A DNA stretch of 64,000 nucleotides, taken from positions 6,138,001 to 6,202,000 of the forward strand of contig NZ_CP030073.1 of the NCBI RefSeq assembly GCF_003261055.1, in the 5' to 3' direction. The position numbers and the translations under genes were made by a program. Each line of letters opens with the position of its first letter. Within the stretch, counting starts at the first letter, position 1. Positions 5,082 to 33,185 of the stretch are shown one piece after another. Below the pieces are notes generated by a model, which did not search any database, was not told the origin of the DNA, and saw only the letters and a list, made by a program, of their open reading frames with translations. Source of the stretch: Streptomyces cadmiisoli. GTDB lineage: Bacteria; Actinomycetota; Actinomycetes; Streptomycetales; Streptomycetaceae.

Positions 5082-5236
5082 TTCAGGTCCTTCGTAGGTC
5101 GTCTCGTCGTCGGTAGAGGCGTCGCTGTCACCATGTCGCCGTAAGGCCCCGGTGTGAAGCGCGGGGGTGGCCCCTCATCGTAGGGACCCTACCGCCCGGA
5201 CGATCTCGCTGTCCGCAGCGAACGACCCACCGATCA

Positions 5237-6217
5237 CTACCCGCGCAGGAAACTCACGATTCCCTCAGAGATCCCTTGCGCCGCCTTCTGCCTCCAGGCG
5301 CCGCCGGCCAGCAGTGCCGCGTCCTTGCTATCGCGCATGTTGCCGCACTCGATGAACACCTTGGGAACCGTTGACAGATTGAGACCGCCGAGGTCCTTGC
5401 GTGTGACGAGACCGGTGCCGCCGCCCACGTAGTTGGAGGGCGCGCTGCCGGTGACGCGCAGGAAGTTGCCCGCGATGCGCTCGCCGAGGTCGCGGGACGG
5501 CCCGACGATCGGACGGGTGTCGGCGGCGCCCTGGTGGACGGCGGCGGGGAGGATCACGTGGTAGCCGCGGTTCCCGGCGGCGGAGCCGTCCGCGTGGATG
5601 GACACGACGGCGTCGGCCTTCGCGGTGTTGCCGATCCGAGCCCGCTCGTCGATGCAGGGCCCGAACGGCCGGTCGCCGTCGTGGGTCAGCTTCACCGTGG
5701 CGCCCTGCTGCTCCAGCAGCGTCCGCAGCCGGTGGGCGACGTCCAGGGTGAACTTGGCCTCCGTGTAACCGGCGTTGGTGGACGTGCCGGTCGTGTCGCA
5801 CTCCTTCAGGCCCGTGCCGATGTCCACCTTGCGGTTGATGTCGGCCGTGTGCTGGAAGTTGCCCGCGTTGTGGCCGGGGTCGATCACGACCACCTTGCCC
5901 TTGAGCGGCGCGGGGGCGCCCGGGGCCGCGGACGTGCCGGGCTTGTCGGCGGACCGGGAAGCGGTCGGAGCGGCGGTCGAGGAGGCGCTCGGGGAACCGG
6001 CCGAAGGGGAGGGCGAGGACGGGTCCGCGCCCGTCGGGGCGGGGGCCGCCTGCCCGGCCGGTCCGCCCGAGCCCTCGGAGCCGCCCACCGCCTCGTACAC
6101 CAGCCACCCCAGCAGGGCACCGGGCACGAGGGCCGCCGCGGCGACGGTCAGCGCCGCGCGACGGGAGCGGCGCGGACGGGACTGGAGGGCATCGAATTCG
6201 GGGCCTCGGTACGACAC
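5237..6217 (-). CDS. N-acetylmuramoyl-L-alanine amidase (Amidase_3), membrane-anchored or secreted
   Basis: 326 residues from a GTG (VSYRGPEFDALQ); an upstream in-frame extension covers intergenic and methyltransferase-antisense sequence and is rejected. After a basic stretch there is one hydrophobic segment (about residues 22-45, AALTVAAAALVPGALLGWLV), then a Ser/Pro/Ala-rich linker to about residue 105, then the zinc amidase domain. Metal and catalytic landmarks are visible: VVIDPGHNAG (His), TEAKFTLDVA (Glu), VVSIHADGS (His) and the late FIECGNM (Glu). The enzyme cleaves the lactyl amide between MurNAc and L-Ala in peptidoglycan, outside the membrane. It is convergent with nothing and stands alone in its transcript. 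Confidence 0.92.
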   Translation of the reverse strand: MSYRGPEFDALQSRPRRSRRAALTVAAAALVPGALLGWLVYEAVGGSEGSGGPAGQAAPAPTGADPSSPSPSAGSPSASSTAAPTASRSADKPGTSAAPGAPAPLKGKVVVIDPGHNAGNFQHTADINRKVDIGTGLKECDTTGTSTNAGYTEAKFTLDVAHRLRTLLEQQGATVKLTHDGDRPFGPCIDERARIGNTAKADAVVSIHADGSAAGNRGYHVILPAAVHQGAADTRPIVGPSRDLGERIAGNFLRVTGSAPSNYVGGGTGLVTRKDLGGLNLSTVPKVFIECGNMRDSKDAALLAGGAWRQKAAQGISEGIVSFLRG

Positions 6218-6317
6218 GCCTGCCACCCTAGCGGCCGCCCGCGCCGCGCCGCGGACACGCGCGGCCCGAAGGGCGCCGACGTGCGCCGGATGGCCGAAGG
6301 GCCGGTGCGAGCGAGGC

Positions 6318-6968
6318 TCAGATGCCGGGGCCGGTGCGCCGCAGCACCCGCAGCGAGCCGGTCGCCGAGACCTCCGTGAAGGCACCGGAGGCGAGTGCCC
6401 GCAGGTACACGCGGTAGGGGGCCTGACCGGTGAACTCGTCCAGCGGGTCGGGGAAGACGTCGTGGATGACCAGCAGCCCGCCGTCGGCCACGTGCGGGGC
6501 CCAGCCCTCGTAGTCGGCGTTCGCGTGCTCGTCGGTGTGGCCGCCGTCGACGAAGACCAGGCCGAGCGGACCGGCCCACACCTTCGCGATCTGCGGCGAG
6601 CGTCCGACCAGGGCCACCACGTGCTCCTCCAGACCCGCCCGGAACAGGGTGCGGCGGAAGGCGGGCAGCGTGTCCATCAGGCCGATCTGCGGGTCGACCG
6701 TGTCCGGGTCGTGGTAGTCCCAGCCCGGCTGCTGCTCCTCGCTGCCGCGGTGGTGGTCGACGGTGAGCGCGCTCACCCCGGCGGCGCGGGCCGCGTCGGC
6801 GAGCAGGACCGTGGAGCGGCCGCAGTAGGTGCCGACCTCCAGCAGCGGCAGCCCGAGCCGTCCGGCGTCGACGGCCGCCGTGTACAGCGCGAGCCCCTCG
6901 TCCACGGGCATGAACCCCTTCGCGATCTCGAACGCGGCCAGGATCTCCGGCTCGGGCGCCGCGGTCAT
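6318..6968 (-). CDS. Class I SAM methyltransferase (Methyltransf_24 type)
   Basis: 216 residues from the ATG preceded by GAGAGGA; 13 upstream in-frame codons lack a ribosome site. Motif I is LLEVGTYCGRSTVLLA, followed by ALTVDHHRGS and the strand-4 region GLVFVDGGHTDEHAN, with LLVIHDVF later. This is the small catechol-O-methyltransferase-like family Methyltransf_24, often linked to sugar or cephalosporin-hydroxylase-type modification. Substrate unknown. It lies between the amidase and an MFS exporter, separated from the latter by a strong hairpin. Confidence 0.82.
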   Translation of the reverse strand: MTAAPEPEILAAFEIAKGFMPVDEGLALYTAAVDAGRLGLPLLEVGTYCGRSTVLLADAARAAGVSALTVDHHRGSEEQQPGWDYHDPDTVDPQIGLMDTLPAFRRTLFRAGLEEHVVALVGRSPQIAKVWAGPLGLVFVDGGHTDEHANADYEGWAPHVADGGLLVIHDVFPDPLDEFTGQAPYRVYLRALASGAFTEVSATGSLRVLRRTGPGI

Positions 6969-22623: not shown

Positions 22624-23556
22624 ATGACTGCACGCGGCTGGCTCCTGTTCTCCCTGCTGGGAGTCGTCTGGGGCATTCCCTATCTGATGATCAAGGTGGC
22701 GGTGGACGAGGTGTCCCCGTCCATGGTCGTGTTCACCCGCTGCGCCCTGGGCGCGGCCCTGCTGCTCCCCTTCGCGCTACGGCAACCGGGCCTGGCGAGG
22801 ACCGTCCGGACGCGCTGGAAGCCGATGCTGGCCTTCGCGTGCATCGAGATCATCGGCCCCTGGTGGACCCTCACCGACGCCGAGCGCCATCTCTCCAGCT
22901 CCACGGCGGGCCTGCTGATCGCGGGCGTCCCGATCGTCGGCGTCGCCCTGGCCCGGTTCTTCGGCGCCGCCGAACACCTCGGCGCCCGGCGCGTCACCGG
23001 CCTCGTCCTCGGCCTCACCGGCGTCACCGTCCTCGCCGCACCCCACCTGACCGGCGGCGACGCCCGCTCGCTGGGCGAGGTGATGCTGACCGTGCTGGGC
23101 TACGCGATCGCCCCCCTCATCGCCGCCCGCCACCTGAAGGACGTCCCCACCCTGCACCTGACCGCCCCGTGCCTGGCGCTGGCCGCCCTGGTCTACGCGC
23201 CCGCCGCCGCGGCCTCCTGGCCCGCCCGGACACCGTCCACCGAGGCCCTGATCGCCCTCGCAGCCCTCGGCGTCGTCTGCACCGCCGTCGCCTTCGTCGC
23301 CTTCATGGAACTGATCAAGGAAGCGGGTCCGACCCGGGCCACCGTCATCACGTACGTCAATCCGGCGGTCGCGGTGGCGGCCGGCGCGCTGTTCCTGGAC
23401 GAGGCCCTGACCGCCTCGATCGCGGTCGCCTTCGCGCTGATCCTGGCGGGCTCGGTCCTGGCCACGGCCGCCGCCGGCCCGCGGCGCCCGTCCCGCCCGG
23501 TACCATGGTCGACACGGCAGACGAGCCGGGCGGACGGCCGCGTGGAGTCCCCTTGA
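22624..23556 (+). CDS. EamA/DMT-family transporter
   Basis: 310 residues with ten hydrophobic segments in two EamA halves (GVVWGIPYLMIKVAVDEVSP in the first; VAFVAFMELIKEAGPTRA in the second). Family role: export of metabolites or amino acids across the cytoplasmic membrane. It follows the AraC gene by 20 bases and is probably co-transcribed and controlled by it. The last 25 or so residues are basic and overlap the 5' end of rnpB by about 40 bases, so this protein tail and the RNA constrain the same DNA. Confidence 0.87.
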   Translation: MTARGWLLFSLLGVVWGIPYLMIKVAVDEVSPSMVVFTRCALGAALLLPFALRQPGLARTVRTRWKPMLAFACIEIIGPWWTLTDAERHLSSSTAGLLIAGVPIVGVALARFFGAAEHLGARRVTGLVLGLTGVTVLAAPHLTGGDARSLGEVMLTVLGYAIAPLIAARHLKDVPTLHLTAPCLALAALVYAPAAAASWPARTPSTEALIALAALGVVCTAVAFVAFMELIKEAGPTRATVITYVNPAVAVAAGALFLDEALTASIAVAFALILAGSVLATAAAGPRRPSRPVPWSTRQTSRADGRVESP

Positions 23557-23927
23557 GGGGGCTTCCCGAGGAACGTCCGGGCTCCACAGGGCAGGGTGAT
23601 GGCTAACGGCCACCCGGGGTGACCCGCGGGACAGTGCCACAGAAAGCAGACCGCCCGGCGCTCAGGCGCTGGGTAAGGGTGAAACGGTGGTGTAAGAGAC
23701 CACCAGTGCCCAGGGCGACCTGGGCAGCTAGGTAAACCCCACCCGGAGCAAGGTCAAGAGGGGACACCCCGGTGTCCCTGCGCGGACGTTCGAGGGCTGC
23801 CCGCCCGAGTCCGCGGGTAGACCGCACGAGGCCGGTGGCAACACCGGCCCTAGATGGATGGCCGTCGCCGGAGGGTTCGCAAGAACCCTCCGGAACAGAA
23901 CCCGGCGTACAGCCCGACTCGTCTGCC
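23516..23927 (+). ncRNA. rnpB: RNase P RNA (bacterial type A)
   Basis: About 405 bases. The ends form stem P1: GGCAGACGAG-C-CGGGC (23516-23531) pairs with GCCCG-A-CTCGTCTGCC (23912-23927). Universally conserved blocks are present: GAGGAACGTCCGGGCTCC near the 5' end, ACAGAAAGCAGACCGCC, TAGATGGATGGCCG and ACAGAACCCGGCGTAC near the 3' end. It is the catalytic subunit that matures tRNA 5' ends. A TACCAT hexamer at about 23501 is a plausible -10 box inside the EamA gene. A T-run lies at 23955 downstream. Confidence 0.97.
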
Positions 23928-25448: not shown

Positions 25449-28400
25449 TCAGTTCGGGATGTCGAGGGTCTCCTGACCAGGCCCAGGAGAGCGCCGAGAC
25501 TTCCGTGGTGGTTTCGGCTCCTTGGTCGCGTGGGCAGGCACGGGCAGGATGCCCTTGCCGCGGAGGTCGTCGGTGGTGATGAGAGAGCCGCTGCTCACGG
25601 CGTCCAAGAGCCTGGCCTGGCGGGGTTCGAGGGCTACGAGGAGCCCGAGCGCGTTGATGAGGTCCAGCAGGTCAAGGGTCCACCGGGAAGGCCAGGTCGG
25701 AGGCAGGATGTCGTTCAACGGGGTCTGCCGTTCCACGTCCGGCTTCCGCTTGCGGAAGCCGAACCATTTGCGGATCACCTGCACCCCGCCGATCCGGTAG
25801 TCCCAGACTTCAGGCGCCACTGGACGTATGGAGCCGGAGCCCACTGAGAGGGTTCGCGTTGTCGCGTCGTAGGAGATGTCCTCCGGCAGCCTCTCGTCCT
25901 CTCCGATCGCGATGACGCATTCGGGTCGCTCTGCCGGGGGGAGCCTCGGGGTCGATCCAGGTGGACTGTCATGGTGGTGAGAGGCGAAGCGCTGGCCGTA
26001 CGTGTGGATCCACACTGTGCGCCTGCCCACCTCCACCACCTCCGCCCACAACGCCGGGTCGCGCGTCAGAGGAATACGGGCACCGCGCTCGGCCAGGTTC
26101 GTGGCGAAACGGCGGGTGTAGCTGCTGTGGCCAGCTACACCCGCGATGTACGCGAAGAGGTCTTCGGCAGTGACCGTCACGCCGTGCGTCTTGGTGAGCA
26201 GTTGCAGCAGGCCGGGTGTCACGTTCGGTTCCGCCTGGTGAGGGTGGCGGTAGAGGGGGGCGACGCGGCCGCCTTCGGTGCCTTTGAAGTGGTGCATGTC
26301 GGGCAGGAGGGCGGTGAACCCCACCGCTGGGCCAGGGCGAGCCGACTCTGTGTGAAGCTCGGAGAGGTAGATCTGGCGCCGGTCGTTGTGGGCGAACCAC
26401 AGGGCCGGTCGCGGAAAGTCGATCACTCGCCTGTCCGCGATGATGAACTGCCGATCGAAGGTCATCCGGCCGTAGGGAACGATGACTGGCACCGTCTCCT
26501 TCTCCGCAGCGAGGCTTTCTCTTTCCTGCTGGCCGGGCAGGGGCGGTTCCGGCTTCTCAGGGCGGCGGTCTCTGGTGGTCTTCAGGAGTGTTGCCTTATC
26601 CGCCGTCGGTGCCTGGACGAGCCTGCGCCAGCGCCGTTCGAGAACGTCCCGGCTGGGTGAGACGGGCCAACTGCGGTTGTTCTTGTTGCCGGAGCTCGTC
26701 CAGGGCAGCAGGGCGTCCACCGATGGCATGGCCGACCACTCGGAGTCGGACGTGACGTGAAAAGGCGCGGTCCACTGTGTGGGGCAGAGCTGCCAGGAGG
26801 TCCCGTTCCGGTGGCCCTCGACGCCGAGCCCTTCCAGCCAGTCGAACTTCTCCTCGCGCATACCCGCTGGCACGTCGAGCCGCCATATCCGCGCCGGGTT
26901 CGTCACGTTCGGGACGCCCCGGCGGACGAACACGGCGATACAGACCTCGCGCTTGACGCCCTGAAAGACACGGGTGCGCGTGTCGGAGTAAGGGCCTTCG
27001 GGCGAGAGACCGATGACCCAGCCCTCGTCGGCGGCCTCGCGCAGGTAGTGGCGCATGCCAGCCGCGCCCTCACTGTCCAGGTATCCGGAGTTGGTGATGA
27101 GGGCGACGACCCCACTGGGGGCCTTCGGTGTGCCCGAAGCCGTTACCTGATCGAAGACCTTCCAGGTGGACCACGCCCAGAAGTAGACATAGAGGTTGTC
27201 GAGAGCGTACCCGACGCGCCCGTTGTCCTCGGGATGGAAGCGGGCGAGGATCGGGCCCTGTTCGTTCGGGTTGCCATCGGTGACCCAGCGACCGACGCCT
27301 GCCTGTCTCGCACCCCGCAGGTAGGGCGGATTGCCGATCACCACCATGACCTTCTCGTCCGCCTTGATCTTGTTCGCCATACGGCGGTGGCGGGCGATCG
27401 CCTCGTACATCAGACCCAGGTGGTGCTCGACGGCGGGATCGTCGAGTGTGTCCGCCACGAGAAGCCTCGGCGGGCGACTCGTGACATCGGCATCATGGGA
27501 CTGGAAGGCGTGCTGCACACGGAGTTCGGCCACCGCGTACGGCCCGGTCTGCTTCTCCAGGCCGACCAGGCGGCTGGAGAGTTCCCGGAGGAGTCCGGAC
27601 TTGAGTGTCTTGCCGTACTTCAACGACAGGGTCTGGGCGACGTGGTCGATGATGTTGATGAGGAAGGTCCCGGTACCCATGGCCGGGTCGACCACGGTGA
27701 CGTCCTGACTTCCGTACCCGTCCTCCTGGCCGAGCCGGTCACGCAGCACTTTGTCGGTGAACCCGACCATGAAGCGGACGACCTCGCCAGGTGTGTAGTA
27801 CGTCCCCGTCCGCCGTCGCAGTTCCGGGTCGTAGGCGCTCAGAAAGCCCTCGTAGAGGTGGAGGTAGGCGTCTCCGGTCTCGTCCTTGAACATGTCGGGG
27901 TCGACGGCCGATATGACATCGATCAGCGTGTCGATGATTCCCCGCAGATCGTCGAGGGCGTCGTCCGTCAGTACCGCCAGAGCCTTGCCCATCAGGGAGT
28001 GCCGTTTGCCCAATCGGCTTGCGACATCGGGGAGGGAGAGCTTGTGCAGATCGATGCGCTCGAGGCGGGCCAGCAGGATTGCGAATGTCAGCGTTTGGCT
28101 GTAATGGTCCGCGAACTCCGCCGGACGGGCGTCGGGAAACAGCAGGTCCTTCCAGTTCCCGGCCAGGATCGAGAACGCCGCGTCAGCTTCCCCGTGTTCC
28201 TCGCGGATGAGCCGTTCGGTGACCTCGTCGCGCAGCAGGGCGCAGATTCCCGCGATGCGCCTGACCAGTTCGTCGATGCTGCCATGGGTGAGGGGCGCCG
28301 GCGTGAAGAAGTGCGTGAGGGCGCGCTCGAACCCGTCGTCCGCGACGAGGAGTTGCCGACCACCGGACTCCAGATCTCCGACGAGGAGTCCGGTGGGGCC

Positions 28401-28829
28401 GACTTGCACGCCGAAGCGGTAGACCGCCCACTCATATCCATCGGTGTACAGCACGTTGTGGAGGGCCTTGATCTTCTCCCACTGCTTCCGGTCATGGCTC
28501 TTCACAGCCCACTTCTCCGGATCGGCCCCCCTACCCGGCTGCTTCAGCTCGACGTGCCCTATGGTCCTGCCGCGGCAACTGATGGCGAAGTCAGGCCGAA
28601 TCCTGAGTCTCTTGACCCGGCTCTGACCGTGGGCGATGAGCTTGAGGCGTTGCCGCCAGGCCATCCCGCGCAGCAGTTGCTCCACCGGCGCGGTGAGGCT
28701 GTCCTCTTTGCTGCTGACCGCCCCTGCGGGGCCTTGCAGCTTGGCCCTGACCTCCTCGCCGAACCTGGCGACGAGGTCCGCGACCGATCCCGTGGTGCCA
28801 TTTTCCGCCCGGACGTCCCCTCGTGCCAT
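25449..28829 (-). CDS. Single-chain restriction-modification enzyme (type IIG/ISP-like N6-adenine methyltransferase with nuclease domain)
   Basis: 1126 residues. The N-terminal domain has a PD-(D/E)xK nuclease-like pattern (Pro79-Asp80 then Glu94-x-Lys96 in GHVELKQ). YYTPGEVV (about 344), the SAM motif DPAMGTGTF (about 381-389) and the catalytic NPPY (500-503) show a gamma-class N6-adenine methyltransferase. The C-terminal part ([16 protein letters not shown] and [20 protein letters not shown]) resembles the specificity region of type ISP enzymes. No helicase motifs are seen, unlike LlaGI-type enzymes of about 1500 residues. It would methylate and cut foreign DNA without partner subunits. Third-position GC is visibly lower than in neighbours, suggesting transfer. 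Confidence 0.85.
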
Positions 28830-31519: not shown

Positions 31520-32251
31520 GTGGCGAAGTTGAATCAGATCATCGCTGTCGAAAAGGGTGTCAAGAGCAAGTCGCTCCAGGACATCACCGCGGCGCACCAC
31601 AAGGTGCAGAAGCCCGCGTTGCTGGCCGGTATCTCGCGTTCGTACCAGCCGAAGGACGAGGAGGGCGAGCAGTTGCCGCCCGAGTCCACTCGGGTACAGG
31701 TGCAGGCCGAGGACGTGCTGCGGGAGATGTCCGCGTCGCTCACCCGGCTGTTCGACGTGACCGCCACCAAGGACTGGGCGAACTGCGCGGCCCGCGCGGA
31801 CGTCACGGTCGACGGGCGTACCGTCGTCGCCGACGTTCCGGTGAGTTACCTGCTGTTCCTGGAGAAGCAGCTCACCGATCTGCACACCTTCGTCAAGAAG
31901 CTCCCGACGCTCGACGCCGCCGAGTCCTGGTCCCACGACCCGTCCACGGACTGGTGGAAGACGGACCCGGTCCGCACGATCCGTACGAAGAAGGTGCCCC
32001 GCAACCACGTCAAGGCGGAGGCGACCGAGAAGCACCCGGCGCAGGTCGAGGTGTACTACGAGGACGTGCCCATCGGGTACTGGACGACCGTGAAGTTCTC
32101 CGGCGCGCTTCCGGCGCGGCGGGTCAACGAGTTGGTGGAGCGGGTCGAGAAGCTCCAGCAGGCCGTGAAGTTCGCCCGCGAGGAGGCCAATGCCACCGAG
32201 GTCACCGACCAGCGGGTCGGCGACGCGGTGTTCGGCTACCTGTTCGGCTGA
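31520..32251 (+). CDS. Conserved protein of unknown function (probably DUF7873) beside permuted tRNA-like RNAs
   Basis: 243 residues from a GTG with GAAGGGGGA upstream. The N-terminus is helical and basic (MAKLNQIIAVEKGVKSKSL, DITAAHHKVQK). Then comes an alpha/beta region (VTVDGRTVVADVPVSYLLFL), a Trp-rich acidic stretch (SWSHDPSTDWWKTDP), a basic segment (TIRTKKVPRNHVKAEATEK) and a C-terminal helix ending DAVFGYLFG. No membrane helix, nucleotide-binding loop or nuclease motif is seen. From memory this is an actinobacterial family, I think DUF7873, with no known function. Two permuted tRNA-like RNAs follow within 360 bases on the same strand, so an RNA-binding or RNA-maturation role is a reasonable guess. 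Confidence 0.75.
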   Translation: MAKLNQIIAVEKGVKSKSLQDITAAHHKVQKPALLAGISRSYQPKDEEGEQLPPESTRVQVQAEDVLREMSASLTRLFDVTATKDWANCAARADVTVDGRTVVADVPVSYLLFLEKQLTDLHTFVKKLPTLDAAESWSHDPSTDWWKTDPVRTIRTKKVPRNHVKAEATEKHPAQVEVYYEDVPIGYWTTVKFSGALPARRVNELVERVEKLQQAVKFAREEANATEVTDQRVGDAVFGYLFG

Positions 32252-32262
32252 GGCCGGCCGCA

Positions 32263-32276
32263 GGTGGCATCCCCAG
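32263..32276 (+). repeat. Direct repeat GGTGGCATCCCCAG, copy 1
   Basis: Fourteen bases identical to 32655-32668. Each copy is directly followed by a strong GC-rich hairpin. The pair brackets the permuted tRNA-like array. Confidence 0.75.
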
Positions 32277-32280
32277 ATCG

Positions 32281-32302
32281 CCCCCGCGTGCGAGCGCGGG
32301 GG
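32281..32302 (+). terminator. Hairpin after the gene at 31520
   Basis: CCCCCGCG and CGCGGGGG pair perfectly around TGCGAG, 30 bases past the stop. It may end the mRNA or separate it from the downstream RNAs. Confidence 0.6.
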
Positions 32303-32380
32303 TGCGCAACAGGCGCGGGCCGGGATGAGGACCGGTTCGCGTGATGAGCGCAAGCTGACACTGAAGTTCAGCCTGAAGAA

Positions 32381-32463
32381 GCGGTGACAGTGAAGGTTCG
32401 AGTCCTTCCCCCGGCACAGCACCACCACGGGCCGGGGTAGCCCAACACGGCAGAGGCAGCCGC
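32381..32463 (+). ncRNA. Circularly permuted tRNA-like RNA 1
   Basis: Read in order: anticodon-stem 3' strand GCGGT (32381-32385), variable GACAGT, T arm GAAGG-TTCGAGT-CCTTC (32392-32408), acceptor 3' strand CCCCGGC (32409-32415), a 15-base cap, acceptor 5' strand GCCGGGG (32431-32437), TA at tRNA positions 8-9, D arm with GCC/GGC stem and a loop containing GG (32440-32457), A at position 26, anticodon-stem 5' strand GCCGC (32459-32463). Acceptor pairing is 7 of 7, anticodon stem 5 of 5 with one GU. The T loop has TTCRA. Joined in normal tRNA order it is a full cloverleaf without an anticodon loop. Flanks on both sides hold further hairpins. Confidence 0.8.
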
Positions 32464-32470
32464 GGTCAAT

Positions 32471-32494
32471 CTCAGACTCTCGCTCCAGTCTCAG
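32471..32494 (+). other. Perfect hairpin between the two tRNA-like RNAs
   Basis: CTCAGACT and AGTCTCAG pair perfectly around CTCGCTCC. It lies just 3' of RNA 1's anticodon-stem strand and 5' of RNA 2, so it may be a processing signal or the end of RNA 1. Confidence 0.6.
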
Positions 32495-32520
32495 CATCGC
32501 CGCCGATCGCCGGATCGACC

Positions 32521-32628
32521 GGGGACGGACGAACGCCGTCGGATGCGAGTTCGACTCTCGCCTGCACCTCTTGCACGGTGCGGTAGTTCAAAGGAAGAAC
32601 ACGACGGCCTGATGACTGATCCGTCCTC
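32521..32628 (+). ncRNA. Circularly permuted tRNA-like RNA 2 with closing stem
   Basis: Core 32536-32607: anticodon-stem 3' strand CCGTCG (32536-32541), GAT, T arm GCGAG-TTCGACT-CTCGC (32545-32561), acceptor 3' strand CTGCACC (32562-32568), 8-base cap TCTTGCAC, acceptor 5' strand GGTGCGG (32577-32583), TA, D arm GTTC-AAAGGAA-GAAC (32586-32600), A, anticodon-stem 5' strand CGACGG (32602-32607). Acceptor pairs 7 of 7 (one GU), anticodon stem 6 of 6. Outside an asymmetric internal loop (CGAACG / CCTGATGACTGA) a further stem GGGGACGGA (32521-32529) pairs with TCCGTCCTC (32620-32628). Thus both RNA ends meet where a tRNA has its anticodon loop. Confidence 0.82.
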
Positions 32629-32654
32629 TTAAACGCCGCCGGCGTGCGCAATTG

Positions 32655-32668
32655 GGTGGCATCCCCAG
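32655..32668 (+). repeat. Direct repeat GGTGGCATCCCCAG, copy 2
   Basis: Identical to 32263-32276, placed after the second tRNA-like RNA and again directly before a hairpin. Confidence 0.75.
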
Positions 32669-32701
32669 GGGCCCGGGAGCTGGATACGACTCCCGGGCTC
32701 C
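32668..32701. terminator. Hairpin terminator at the end of the tRNA-like array
   Basis: GGGGCCCGGGAG-like and CTCCCGGGCTCC strands (32668-32679 and 32690-32701) pair over 12 bases with one GU around a 10-base loop. It can end the array on the + strand and the MazG-like gene on the - strand. Confidence 0.7.
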
Positions 32702-32771
32702 GTCACGTCCGGCCCGGCAACGCCGGGCGACATGGTGCTGTCGTCAGCACCAGCGGGTGCGCCGGGGCGGT

Positions 32772-33185
32772 TCAGGGGCCCGGCGTACGAGCGGCCGGCG
32801 CCCCGACCGAGCGCTCCCGTACCCGTCCCAGGTGCTCCGTGAACACCTCCCGCGCGTCCGGTGTCAGCGTGCGCAGCGCCACCAGTGCCGTGATGACCAC
32901 GTCGCACAGCTCCGACTGGACGTCGTCCCACGTGTGGGTCGTGCCCTTGCGCGGGTTCTGGCCGGTCGCGCCGATCACCGCCTGGGCGACCTCGCCGACC
33001 TCCTCCGTCAGCTTCAGCATGCGCAGCAGCAGGCCTTCCCGGCCGCCGTGCGCACGGTTCGCGTCCAGCCACTGCCACAGGTCGTCGATGGCGGTCCACG
33101 GGTCGAGGGCCGGTACCGGGGTGGACGCCGGGGTCGGGGGCCGGTCCGTGGGCGTTACCCGGTGATCACTCGTCGCATCACTCAT
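32772..33185 (-). CDS. MazG-like NTP pyrophosphohydrolase family protein
   Basis: 137 residues. The core has the MazG metal motif LKLTEEVGEVAQAVIGATG (EExxE, about residues 57-75) and the second acidic pair in SELCDVVITALVAL (about 90-103). The first about 28 residues are Pro/Thr-rich and the last ten are disordered. The family hydrolyses (d)NTPs to monophosphates in house-cleaning or phage-related roles; it is a single-domain all-alpha version. It faces the permuted tRNA-like array and shares the hairpin at 32668. Confidence 0.85.
   Translation of the reverse strand: MSDATSDHRVTPTDRPPTPASTPVPALDPWTAIDDLWQWLDANRAHGGREGLLLRMLKLTEEVGEVAQAVIGATGQNPRKGTTHTWDDVQSELCDVVITALVALRTLTPDAREVFTEHLGRVRERSVGAPAARTPGP

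Follow-up and report, generated by a model that had tools for sequence, protein, structure and literature searches.

Bacterial Y RNAs are known, to our knowledge, as partners of Ro60. The acceptor stem of one of them, YrlA, is closed by a short stable loop. Passages of PMC8394870 describe the YrlA stem as binding Rsr and the tRNA-like part as binding PNPase, and the same passages make the tRNA-like domain a substrate of DusA and TruB. The YrlA of Salmonella has been suggested to inhibit an anticodon nuclease competitively (PMC7790460). In two-piece tmRNA, base-paired pieces form the tRNA-like structure and maturation is probably by RNase P and tRNase Z, as outlined in sections of PMC3985003. 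Circularly permuted tRNA genes were listed as of 2014 for six algae and one archaeon (PMC3978253).

The DNA analysed here (the window) is a stretch of 64,000 nt from Streptomyces cadmiisoli (GCF_003261055.1, NZ_CP030073.1 positions 6,138,001-6,202,000, forward strand). The initial annotation had placed in it two tRNA-like units in permuted order, here called A and B, and both their coordinates and their pairings hold. Together with the gene that precedes them they form a two-gene cassette, comprising DUF7873 and a structured non-coding RNA in which two YrlA-like permuted modules are carried on a conserved core. Several features go beyond the initial annotation, namely the core that lies between and outside the arms, the outer stems, the upstream DUF7873 gene and the relatives in phages. 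Comparison of the sequences places units A and B in one conserved RNA, with a predicted length of roughly 350-450 nt, directly behind the DUF7873 gene. The locus is arranged as follows.

31520..32251, + strand: gene for the DUF7873 protein (PF25283, Pfam E 9.8e-123), 243 aa; the genomic partner of the RNA
32279..32302, + strand: G+C-rich hairpin just 3′ of the stop codon, seen in the sequence; either the mRNA end or a 5′ portion of the RNA
32346..32350, + strand: GAGCG, proposed to pair with CGCTC at 32481-32485 as a pseudoknot with the outer stem of unit A
32355..32363, + strand: outer stem of unit A, 5′ strand; pairs with 32486-32494 (8/9)
32381..32463, + strand: unit A as a whole, a permuted tRNA-like arm
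32381..32415, + strand: 3′ half of unit A, with the anticodon-like strand GCGGT, the T arm GAAGG-TTCGAGT-CCTTC and the acceptor 3′ strand CCCCGGC
32416..32430, + strand: acceptor linker of unit A, starting with A73 and C74 (in 58 Streptomyces loci A73 56, C74 51, NCCA 24)
32431..32463, + strand: 5′ half of unit A, with the acceptor 5′ strand GCCGGGG, T8 A9, a D arm with GG and the anticodon-like GCCGC
32464..32523, + strand: conserved core between the arms (CTCAGACT-CTCGCTC-CAG.. and GGATCGACCGG)
32486..32494, + strand: outer stem of unit A, 3′ strand; pairs with 32355-32363
32524..32529, + strand: outer stem of unit B, 5′ strand; 6/6 pairs with changes on both sides
32535..32608, + strand: unit B as a whole, a permuted tRNA-like arm
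32535..32568, + strand: 3′ half of unit B, with the anticodon-like 3′ strand, a T arm with the loop TTCGACT and the acceptor 3′ strand
32569..32576, + strand: acceptor linker of unit B, TCTTGCAC, with C74 and T75 (both in 58/58 Streptomyces loci, NCCA in 0)
32577..32608, + strand: 5′ half of unit B, with the acceptor 5′ strand, T8 A9, a 4-bp D arm and the anticodon-like 5′ strand
32620..32625, + strand: outer stem of unit B, 3′ strand, from the pairing/covariation alignments
32626..32635, + strand: conserved motif CTCTTAAACG (TTAAACG in 37/90 phage/viral loci, 3.2 in shuffles)
32671..32698, + strand: terminal G+C-rich hairpin whose loop holds GGATAC, seen in the sequence; possible 3′ end of the RNA

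In both A and B the 3′ half lies upstream of the 5′ half, and the cloverleaf is recovered once the units are rotated. The acceptor stems pair 7/7 in each unit, with one G-U, located in B, and the T loops (TTCGAGT in A and TTCGACT in B), T8 A9 and the D arms are present as initially described. The lower, anticodon-like stem of unit A has the 5/5 pairs that were claimed for it; that of unit B has 7/7 rather than 6/6. The T stems are 5/5 in both. A descriptor was composed of the T arm, acceptor 3′ strand, linker, acceptor 5′ strand, T-R at positions 8-9, D arm with GG and lower stem. Applied to both strands of the 64 kb window at a score >15 it is found in exactly two places, which are units A and B, and 20 Markov-1 random copies of the window give zero matches at any score, so that the permuted order is far above chance. 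ARAGORN calls neither a tRNA in native order nor a tmRNA in the window. When the halves are rearranged to tRNA order and joined by a dummy anticodon loop it calls both units tRNA; the native stretch gives none. Both lower stems lead, without an anticodon loop, into the conserved core and the outer stems. The hairpin at 32279..32302 is similar in part of the Streptomyces loci and different in others, and the end hairpin at 32671..32698 has no T-run terminator.

Two covariance models were made, R1 from unit B (35 Streptomyces rows, 35/57 used) and R2 from unit A with its outer stem (27 Streptomyces rows, 27/38 used). Covariation in permuted order, which had been named beforehand as the test of the two units, is strong in both the Streptomyces and the phage/viral alignments. 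The former was made with MAFFT without fitting to the structure and holds 58 of 86 rows, 28 with regions <265 nt being left out. In these 58 loci 92.1% of the cells pair, compared with 83.4% in shuffles and 39.5-47.3% when slid, and 30 of the 62 pairs have changes on both sides. In the T, acceptor and D helices the paired fraction is 99.8-100%. RNAalifold recovers from the same 58 loci the T and acceptor helices of both units, the D helix of B and the lower stem of A, together with parts of the outer stems, and 26 of its 57 predicted pairs are compensated; the lower stem of B is not predicted in these loci, and the D strand of A is paired differently. The phage/viral alignment contains 132 R1 matches from both arms mixed (117 distinct). 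In the 117 rows 93.9% of the cells pair (56.6% shuffled, 37.1-43.4% slid) and 29/29 pairs have changes on both sides, in an alignment that leans towards the structure because it was fitted to R1.

The lower stem of B is paired in 62.5% of the cells in the Streptomyces alignment and in 87.5% in the phage/viral rows, and its outer stem in 86.0% and 87.1% respectively. For the outer stem of A the Streptomyces value is 89.9%, with no changes on both sides, and this stem is included in the full-length R2 matches in phages. The GAGCG/CGCTC helix is paired in 99.0% of the cells in the 58 loci; its changes are one-sided only, so that the pairing is unproved by covariation. The core at 32464..32523 is highly conserved in the 58 Streptomyces loci, and its motif TTAT[CT]GCTC occurs in 18/90 phage/viral loci, compared with 0.4 in shuffles. 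A motif related to the loop of the end hairpin, CGGATA[CT], is found in 24/90 (7.1 in shuffles).

The coupling of gene and RNA within the genus is close. DUF7873 is found in 50/101 Streptomyces genomes, and full-length R1 matches at E < 1e-9 occur in 50/101, the two sets being identical. The positives here are partly by construction, as the training loci of R1 and R2 are Streptomyces ones that had been located by BLAST or next to DUF7873 and that in some cases come from these 101 genomes; this caveat applies neither to the 51 negatives nor to the phage matches. In all 50 genomes the match lies on the strand of the gene, <500 nt downstream of DUF7873. Plain BLAST places the RNA in 49/50 of the DUF7873 genomes, with one 30-nt match in 1/51 of the others. 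Weaker R1 matches occur in most of the remaining genomes, 89/101 in all having some match at E <= 0.001. One of these (L248, at G000:C1:5997921-5998015) is a tandem of equal tRNA-Asn genes that imitates the permuted order; tandem equal tRNA genes are a pitfall for searches of this kind. In the sample of the phylum DUF7873 occurs in 7/396 genomes, all of the same genus, and further in one record filed as a Nonomuraea plasmid and, among 14 control genomes, in Deinobacterium chartae. Given this linkage, it is very probable that the RNA and DUF7873 act together.

The location of the cassette varies, since the genes that neighbour it in the window are found in the retrieved flanks of at most 7/64 full named loci. 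In the window an RNase P RNA gene (RF00010, 290.8 bits) is located at 23522-23925 (+), ~8.4 kb ahead of the RNA, and a Type ISP restriction-modification enzyme (PF18135, PF02384) is encoded at 25449-28829 (-). Following the RNA there is a MazG-like pyrophosphohydrolase just under the Pfam cut-off (32772-33185) and then a DoxX gene; such neighbours are mostly not kept with the cassette.

The two arms are not equally retained. In 28/87 Streptomyces loci the T, acceptor and D arms of unit A are missing and a short hairpin-like stretch takes their place, while the core stays (88 non-redundant loci, 1 unresolved; loss judged by the absence of GGTTCRA between fixed motifs). Unit B is retained in all 50 DUF7873 genomes. 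A and B are therefore arms on a common core, of which A is dispensable in those loci, and two arms are not needed everywhere.

The DUF7873 protein matches PF25283 only in Pfam, with no match to a TROVE model, and searches of PHROG, NCBIfam and PADLOC gave nothing at the limits used. An AlphaFold2 model (mean pLDDT 90.8, pTM 0.66) predicts helices at residues 4-29, 63-90, 108-126 and 199-224, and long strands at 151-166 and 175-190. Conservation is high in a stretch at and around the turn between these strands, which reads TKKV..., ATDKHPAQV in the consensus. A structure search with the model gave no confident fold relative. The calculated pI is 6.3, unlike that of a typical RNA-binding protein. 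Among the matches listed, the closest named relatives of the protein are all from Streptomyces (80/80 loci kept).

The cassette is largely a phage element that is also present in about half of the sampled Streptomyces genomes. DUF7873 is found in 73 phage records (some of them duplicates), from phages of Vibrio, Gordonia, Rhizobium, Klebsiella, Serratia, Arthrobacter, Pseudanabaena, Rhodococcus and Microcoleus, and in 284 viral-contig stretches (the best 80 retained), several of them on contigs >300 kb. In several phages the gene lies within a tRNA array. The descriptor was applied to 75 viral loci from the best 80 of 284, namely those with >=700 nt downstream (5/80 with less were dropped). 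A permuted unit lies <=1 kb downstream of DUF7873 in 58/75 and two units in 20/75; the controls give 1/75 for <=1 kb upstream and 2/75 for anywhere on the other strand. Counts by descriptor, both here and for the linkers and acceptor ends below, use units picked for pairing, and pairing is not counted from them. The descriptor also fires at a few places away from DUF7873 in phage loci (L072 6193, L073 2066 and L085 234).

The Streptomyces-only models find the RNA in phages and viral contigs with best matches of E 5.3e-21 (R1) and 2.5e-22 (R2). An R1 match at E <= 0.01 lies <=1 kb downstream of DUF7873 in 82/95 phage/viral loci. At E < 1e-7, unit B (R1) is present in 66 of the 95 loci and unit A (R2) in 57, with either in 71 and both in 52, and in 52/52 of the latter the two units share a strand, with A ahead of B and the models separated by 10-34 nt. 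Some R1 or R2 match at E <= 0.01 is found in 88/95 phage/viral loci; 7/95 have neither at that threshold.

Most phage/viral loci have DUF7873 upstream of the RNA, with exceptions. The pair of units is upstream of the gene in L141 and on the other strand in L135, and in L145 a unit lies 690 nt from it. In Microcoleus phage My-WqHQDG (L077) the pair is ~1.8 kb downstream of DUF7873, behind another ORF (5184-6461), the start of which looks IscB-like; an insertion here may have pushed the RNA pair 1.8 kb away. In Klebsiella phage Centimanus an annotated 'tRNA-Stop(tta)' (L080 5013-5096) spans the inter-unit region and the 3′ half of unit B, and is probably a misread permuted unit. A gene for a band-7-like membrane protein (L073 5374-6246) is located near the cassette of Rhodococcus phage NiceHouse.

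The acceptor ends of the phage units resemble those of pre-tRNAs. In 90 distinct phage/viral units C74 is present in 82/90, U at position -1 in 51/90 and an encoded NCCA in 37/90; the composition of the linkers would give ~26, ~23 and ~2. Ordinary tRNA genes in these loci (259 distinct) have similar ends (C74 237/259, -1 U 133/259, NCCA 43/259). In the 58 Streptomyces loci C74 holds (51/58 in A, 58/58 in B) and NCCA is encoded in 24/58 A and 0/58 B units (for A, 24/58 counts every locus; 2/16, with one linker per distinct unit, is understated), but U at -1 does not hold, being present in only 12/58 A and 17/58 B. Linkers range from 4 to 62 nt in the phages and from 6 to 10 nt in Streptomyces B units, and some, being only 4 nt, leave little room for cutting. 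The phage figures are, in our view, a sign that the ends are processed like those of pre-tRNAs; the Streptomyces figures support this only in part, and neither set proves cleavage. It seems rather likely, judging from these end signatures, that the acceptor ends are cut by RNase P, at least in the phage forms.

By anatomy the closest known RNA is YrlA, and the anatomy suggests that the RNA would work like YrlA. Each unit has the same permuted module (T arm, acceptor, D arm) on a basal stem, and both align over their full length with the YrlA model RF02553, at 34.4 bits (E 8.6e-6) and 23.4 bits (E 0.013). The cut-off is 69, and at the Rfam gathering threshold the window has no YrlA match. Conversely, R1 and R2 match YrlA-type units beside TROVE genes, and R1 gives one of these (L038) 36.4 bits and unit A of the window 21.8, so that the distance of the arms to YrlA is no greater than that between the two arms. 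YrlA matches below the cut-off lie beside 3/10 TROVE loci of the genus (L034, with two, L037, and L038, with two). The differences are that the partner in the window is DUF7873 and not an adjacent Ro60/Rsr, that two different arms stand on one core, and that the phage acceptor ends are pre-tRNA-like while the YrlA-type units of the genus have short loops (n=5; TTCGG, TTCGG and TACGG by the descriptor, two TCCG by eye).

The position of Ro60 bears on this comparison. The role of RNA partner that DUF7873 would have here corresponds to that of Ro60/Rsr (TROVE, PF05731), but DUF7873 matches PF25283 only. As the initial annotation had it, no TROVE/Ro60 gene lies in the window; the sole TROVE match of the genome is ~2.4 Mb away at G000:C1:8538071, and this locus (L036) has no YrlA match at E <= 0.05 within the retrieved flank. 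In the 101 genomes of the genus TROVE and DUF7873 show no significant association (both 34, DUF7873 only 16, TROVE only 26, neither 25; p 0.11). A TROVE gene is found in 9/48 of the DUF7873 phage/viral records searched (48 of 95) and 39/48 have no TROVE match, many of which may be fragments. A single phage can carry both kinds of gene, as Rhizobium phages TM30 and Y65 (W08, W15) do with a TROVE gene at a distance of ~6 kb from DUF7873. The RNA is not filed as YrlA because of the scores under the cut-off, the lack of an adjacent Ro60, the lack of a significant association with TROVE and the different phage ends. Of the two readings first offered, that of a Y-RNA-like class without Ro60 is largely borne out, with DUF7873 as the neighbour.

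A Y RNA in the strict mechanistic sense would stay uncut, its closed acceptor ends tethering an effector such as PNPase to DUF7873 in place of Ro60. The division of labour described for YrlA, with the stem holding Rsr and the tRNA-like part PNPase, offers a precedent (in passages of PMC8394870). The full-length alignments and reciprocal model matches to YrlA agree with it, as do the short Streptomyces B linkers, which lack CCA. Against this stand the pre-tRNA signature of the phage ends, which are not short caps, linkers of up to 62 nt and the lack of any TROVE match for DUF7873, and we regard this mechanism as unlikely, though the strongest of the alternatives.

The explanation that we consider the better bet is a phage-borne RNP in which RNase P cleaves the arms to give tRNA mimics with CCA ends, and base pairing keeps the pieces together. 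DUF7873 would bind the core to form the RNP, as suggested by the genomic linkage of gene and RNA, and each arm would fold as the upper part of a tRNA with its lower stem continuing into the core. RNase P would cut ahead of the acceptor 5′ strand and the 3′ side would be matured to NCCA, steps to which the end signature points. With such cutting the mature RNA would consist of base-paired pieces, as in two-piece tmRNA, and would display one or two tRNA-type 3′ ends. The RNP could then attract tRNA-recognising enzymes. For a phage the likeliest use would be to shelter tRNAs or translation in the course of infection, by serving as a decoy or platform, for instance against tRNA-cutting defence nucleases; we put forward this decoy or tRNA-protection role with considerable doubt. 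The fullest version is a phage RNP in which RNase P splits the RNA twice, leaving two CCA ends on a DUF7873-bound core as a chargeable or modifiable double tRNA mimic, which shields phage translation from tRNA-targeting defences and was later taken over by Streptomyces. We offer it tentatively, as a scenario short of even chances.

The RNA might alternatively be a cis-acting structure in the 3′ untranslated region of the DUF7873 mRNA, where cutting by RNase P or other tRNA enzymes sets the level of the protein. It lies on the same strand, with the first conserved element ~95 nt after the stop codon, and no promoter-like site is present in 32150-32800, in a scan that covers the sigma-70 type only. 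The distance from the gene varies in phages, as in L145, and the arrangements in L141 (upstream), L135 (other strand) and L077 (~1.8 kb downstream) do not fit a structure of this kind, making it improbable. It is still less probable that the RNA is a relative of tmRNA, entering ribosomes by a tRNA-like arm. The permuted order, the encoded CCA and the presumed RNase P cut are shared with two-piece tmRNA (PMC3985003). The RNA differs in its full D stems of 3-4 bp and its two arms, and tmRNA was rejected as a candidate because ARAGORN calls none in the window and the Rfam tmRNA models have no match up to E 10 in 32230-32780.

The second of the readings first offered, circularly permuted tRNA genes whose ends are joined into working tRNAs, found no support and is very improbable indeed. 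ARAGORN does accept the reordered halves with a dummy loop. The lower stems, however, lead into the conserved core and outer stems with no anticodon loop at their end, unit A is missing in 28/87 Streptomyces loci and so is dispensable, and the hosts are bacterial and phage. Chance pairing or remnants of ordinary tandem tRNA genes, for which the tRNA-Asn pair at G000:C1:5997921 with its weak R1 match and the few descriptor hits away from DUF7873 might be cited, can be dismissed in view of the lack of any tRNA call in the window, the zero matches in random copies, the covariation and the linkage.

Literature searches on the cassette of RNA and DUF7873 found no paper. It is a real and widespread RNA-protein cassette of large phages and Streptomyces, and the RNA appears to be a relative of the bacterial Y RNAs that has yet to be described. 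DUF7873, a family without an assigned function, now has a concrete candidate RNA partner. If the reading is true there would be a widespread second class, distinguished by a different protein, by two arms and, in its phage members, by ends of the pre-tRNA type, and permuted tRNA mimics would be a more general device. Large phages would use such mimics, some of them inside tRNA arrays, and this use of tRNA-like RNAs is directly testable in laboratory Streptomyces and in Gordonia phages.
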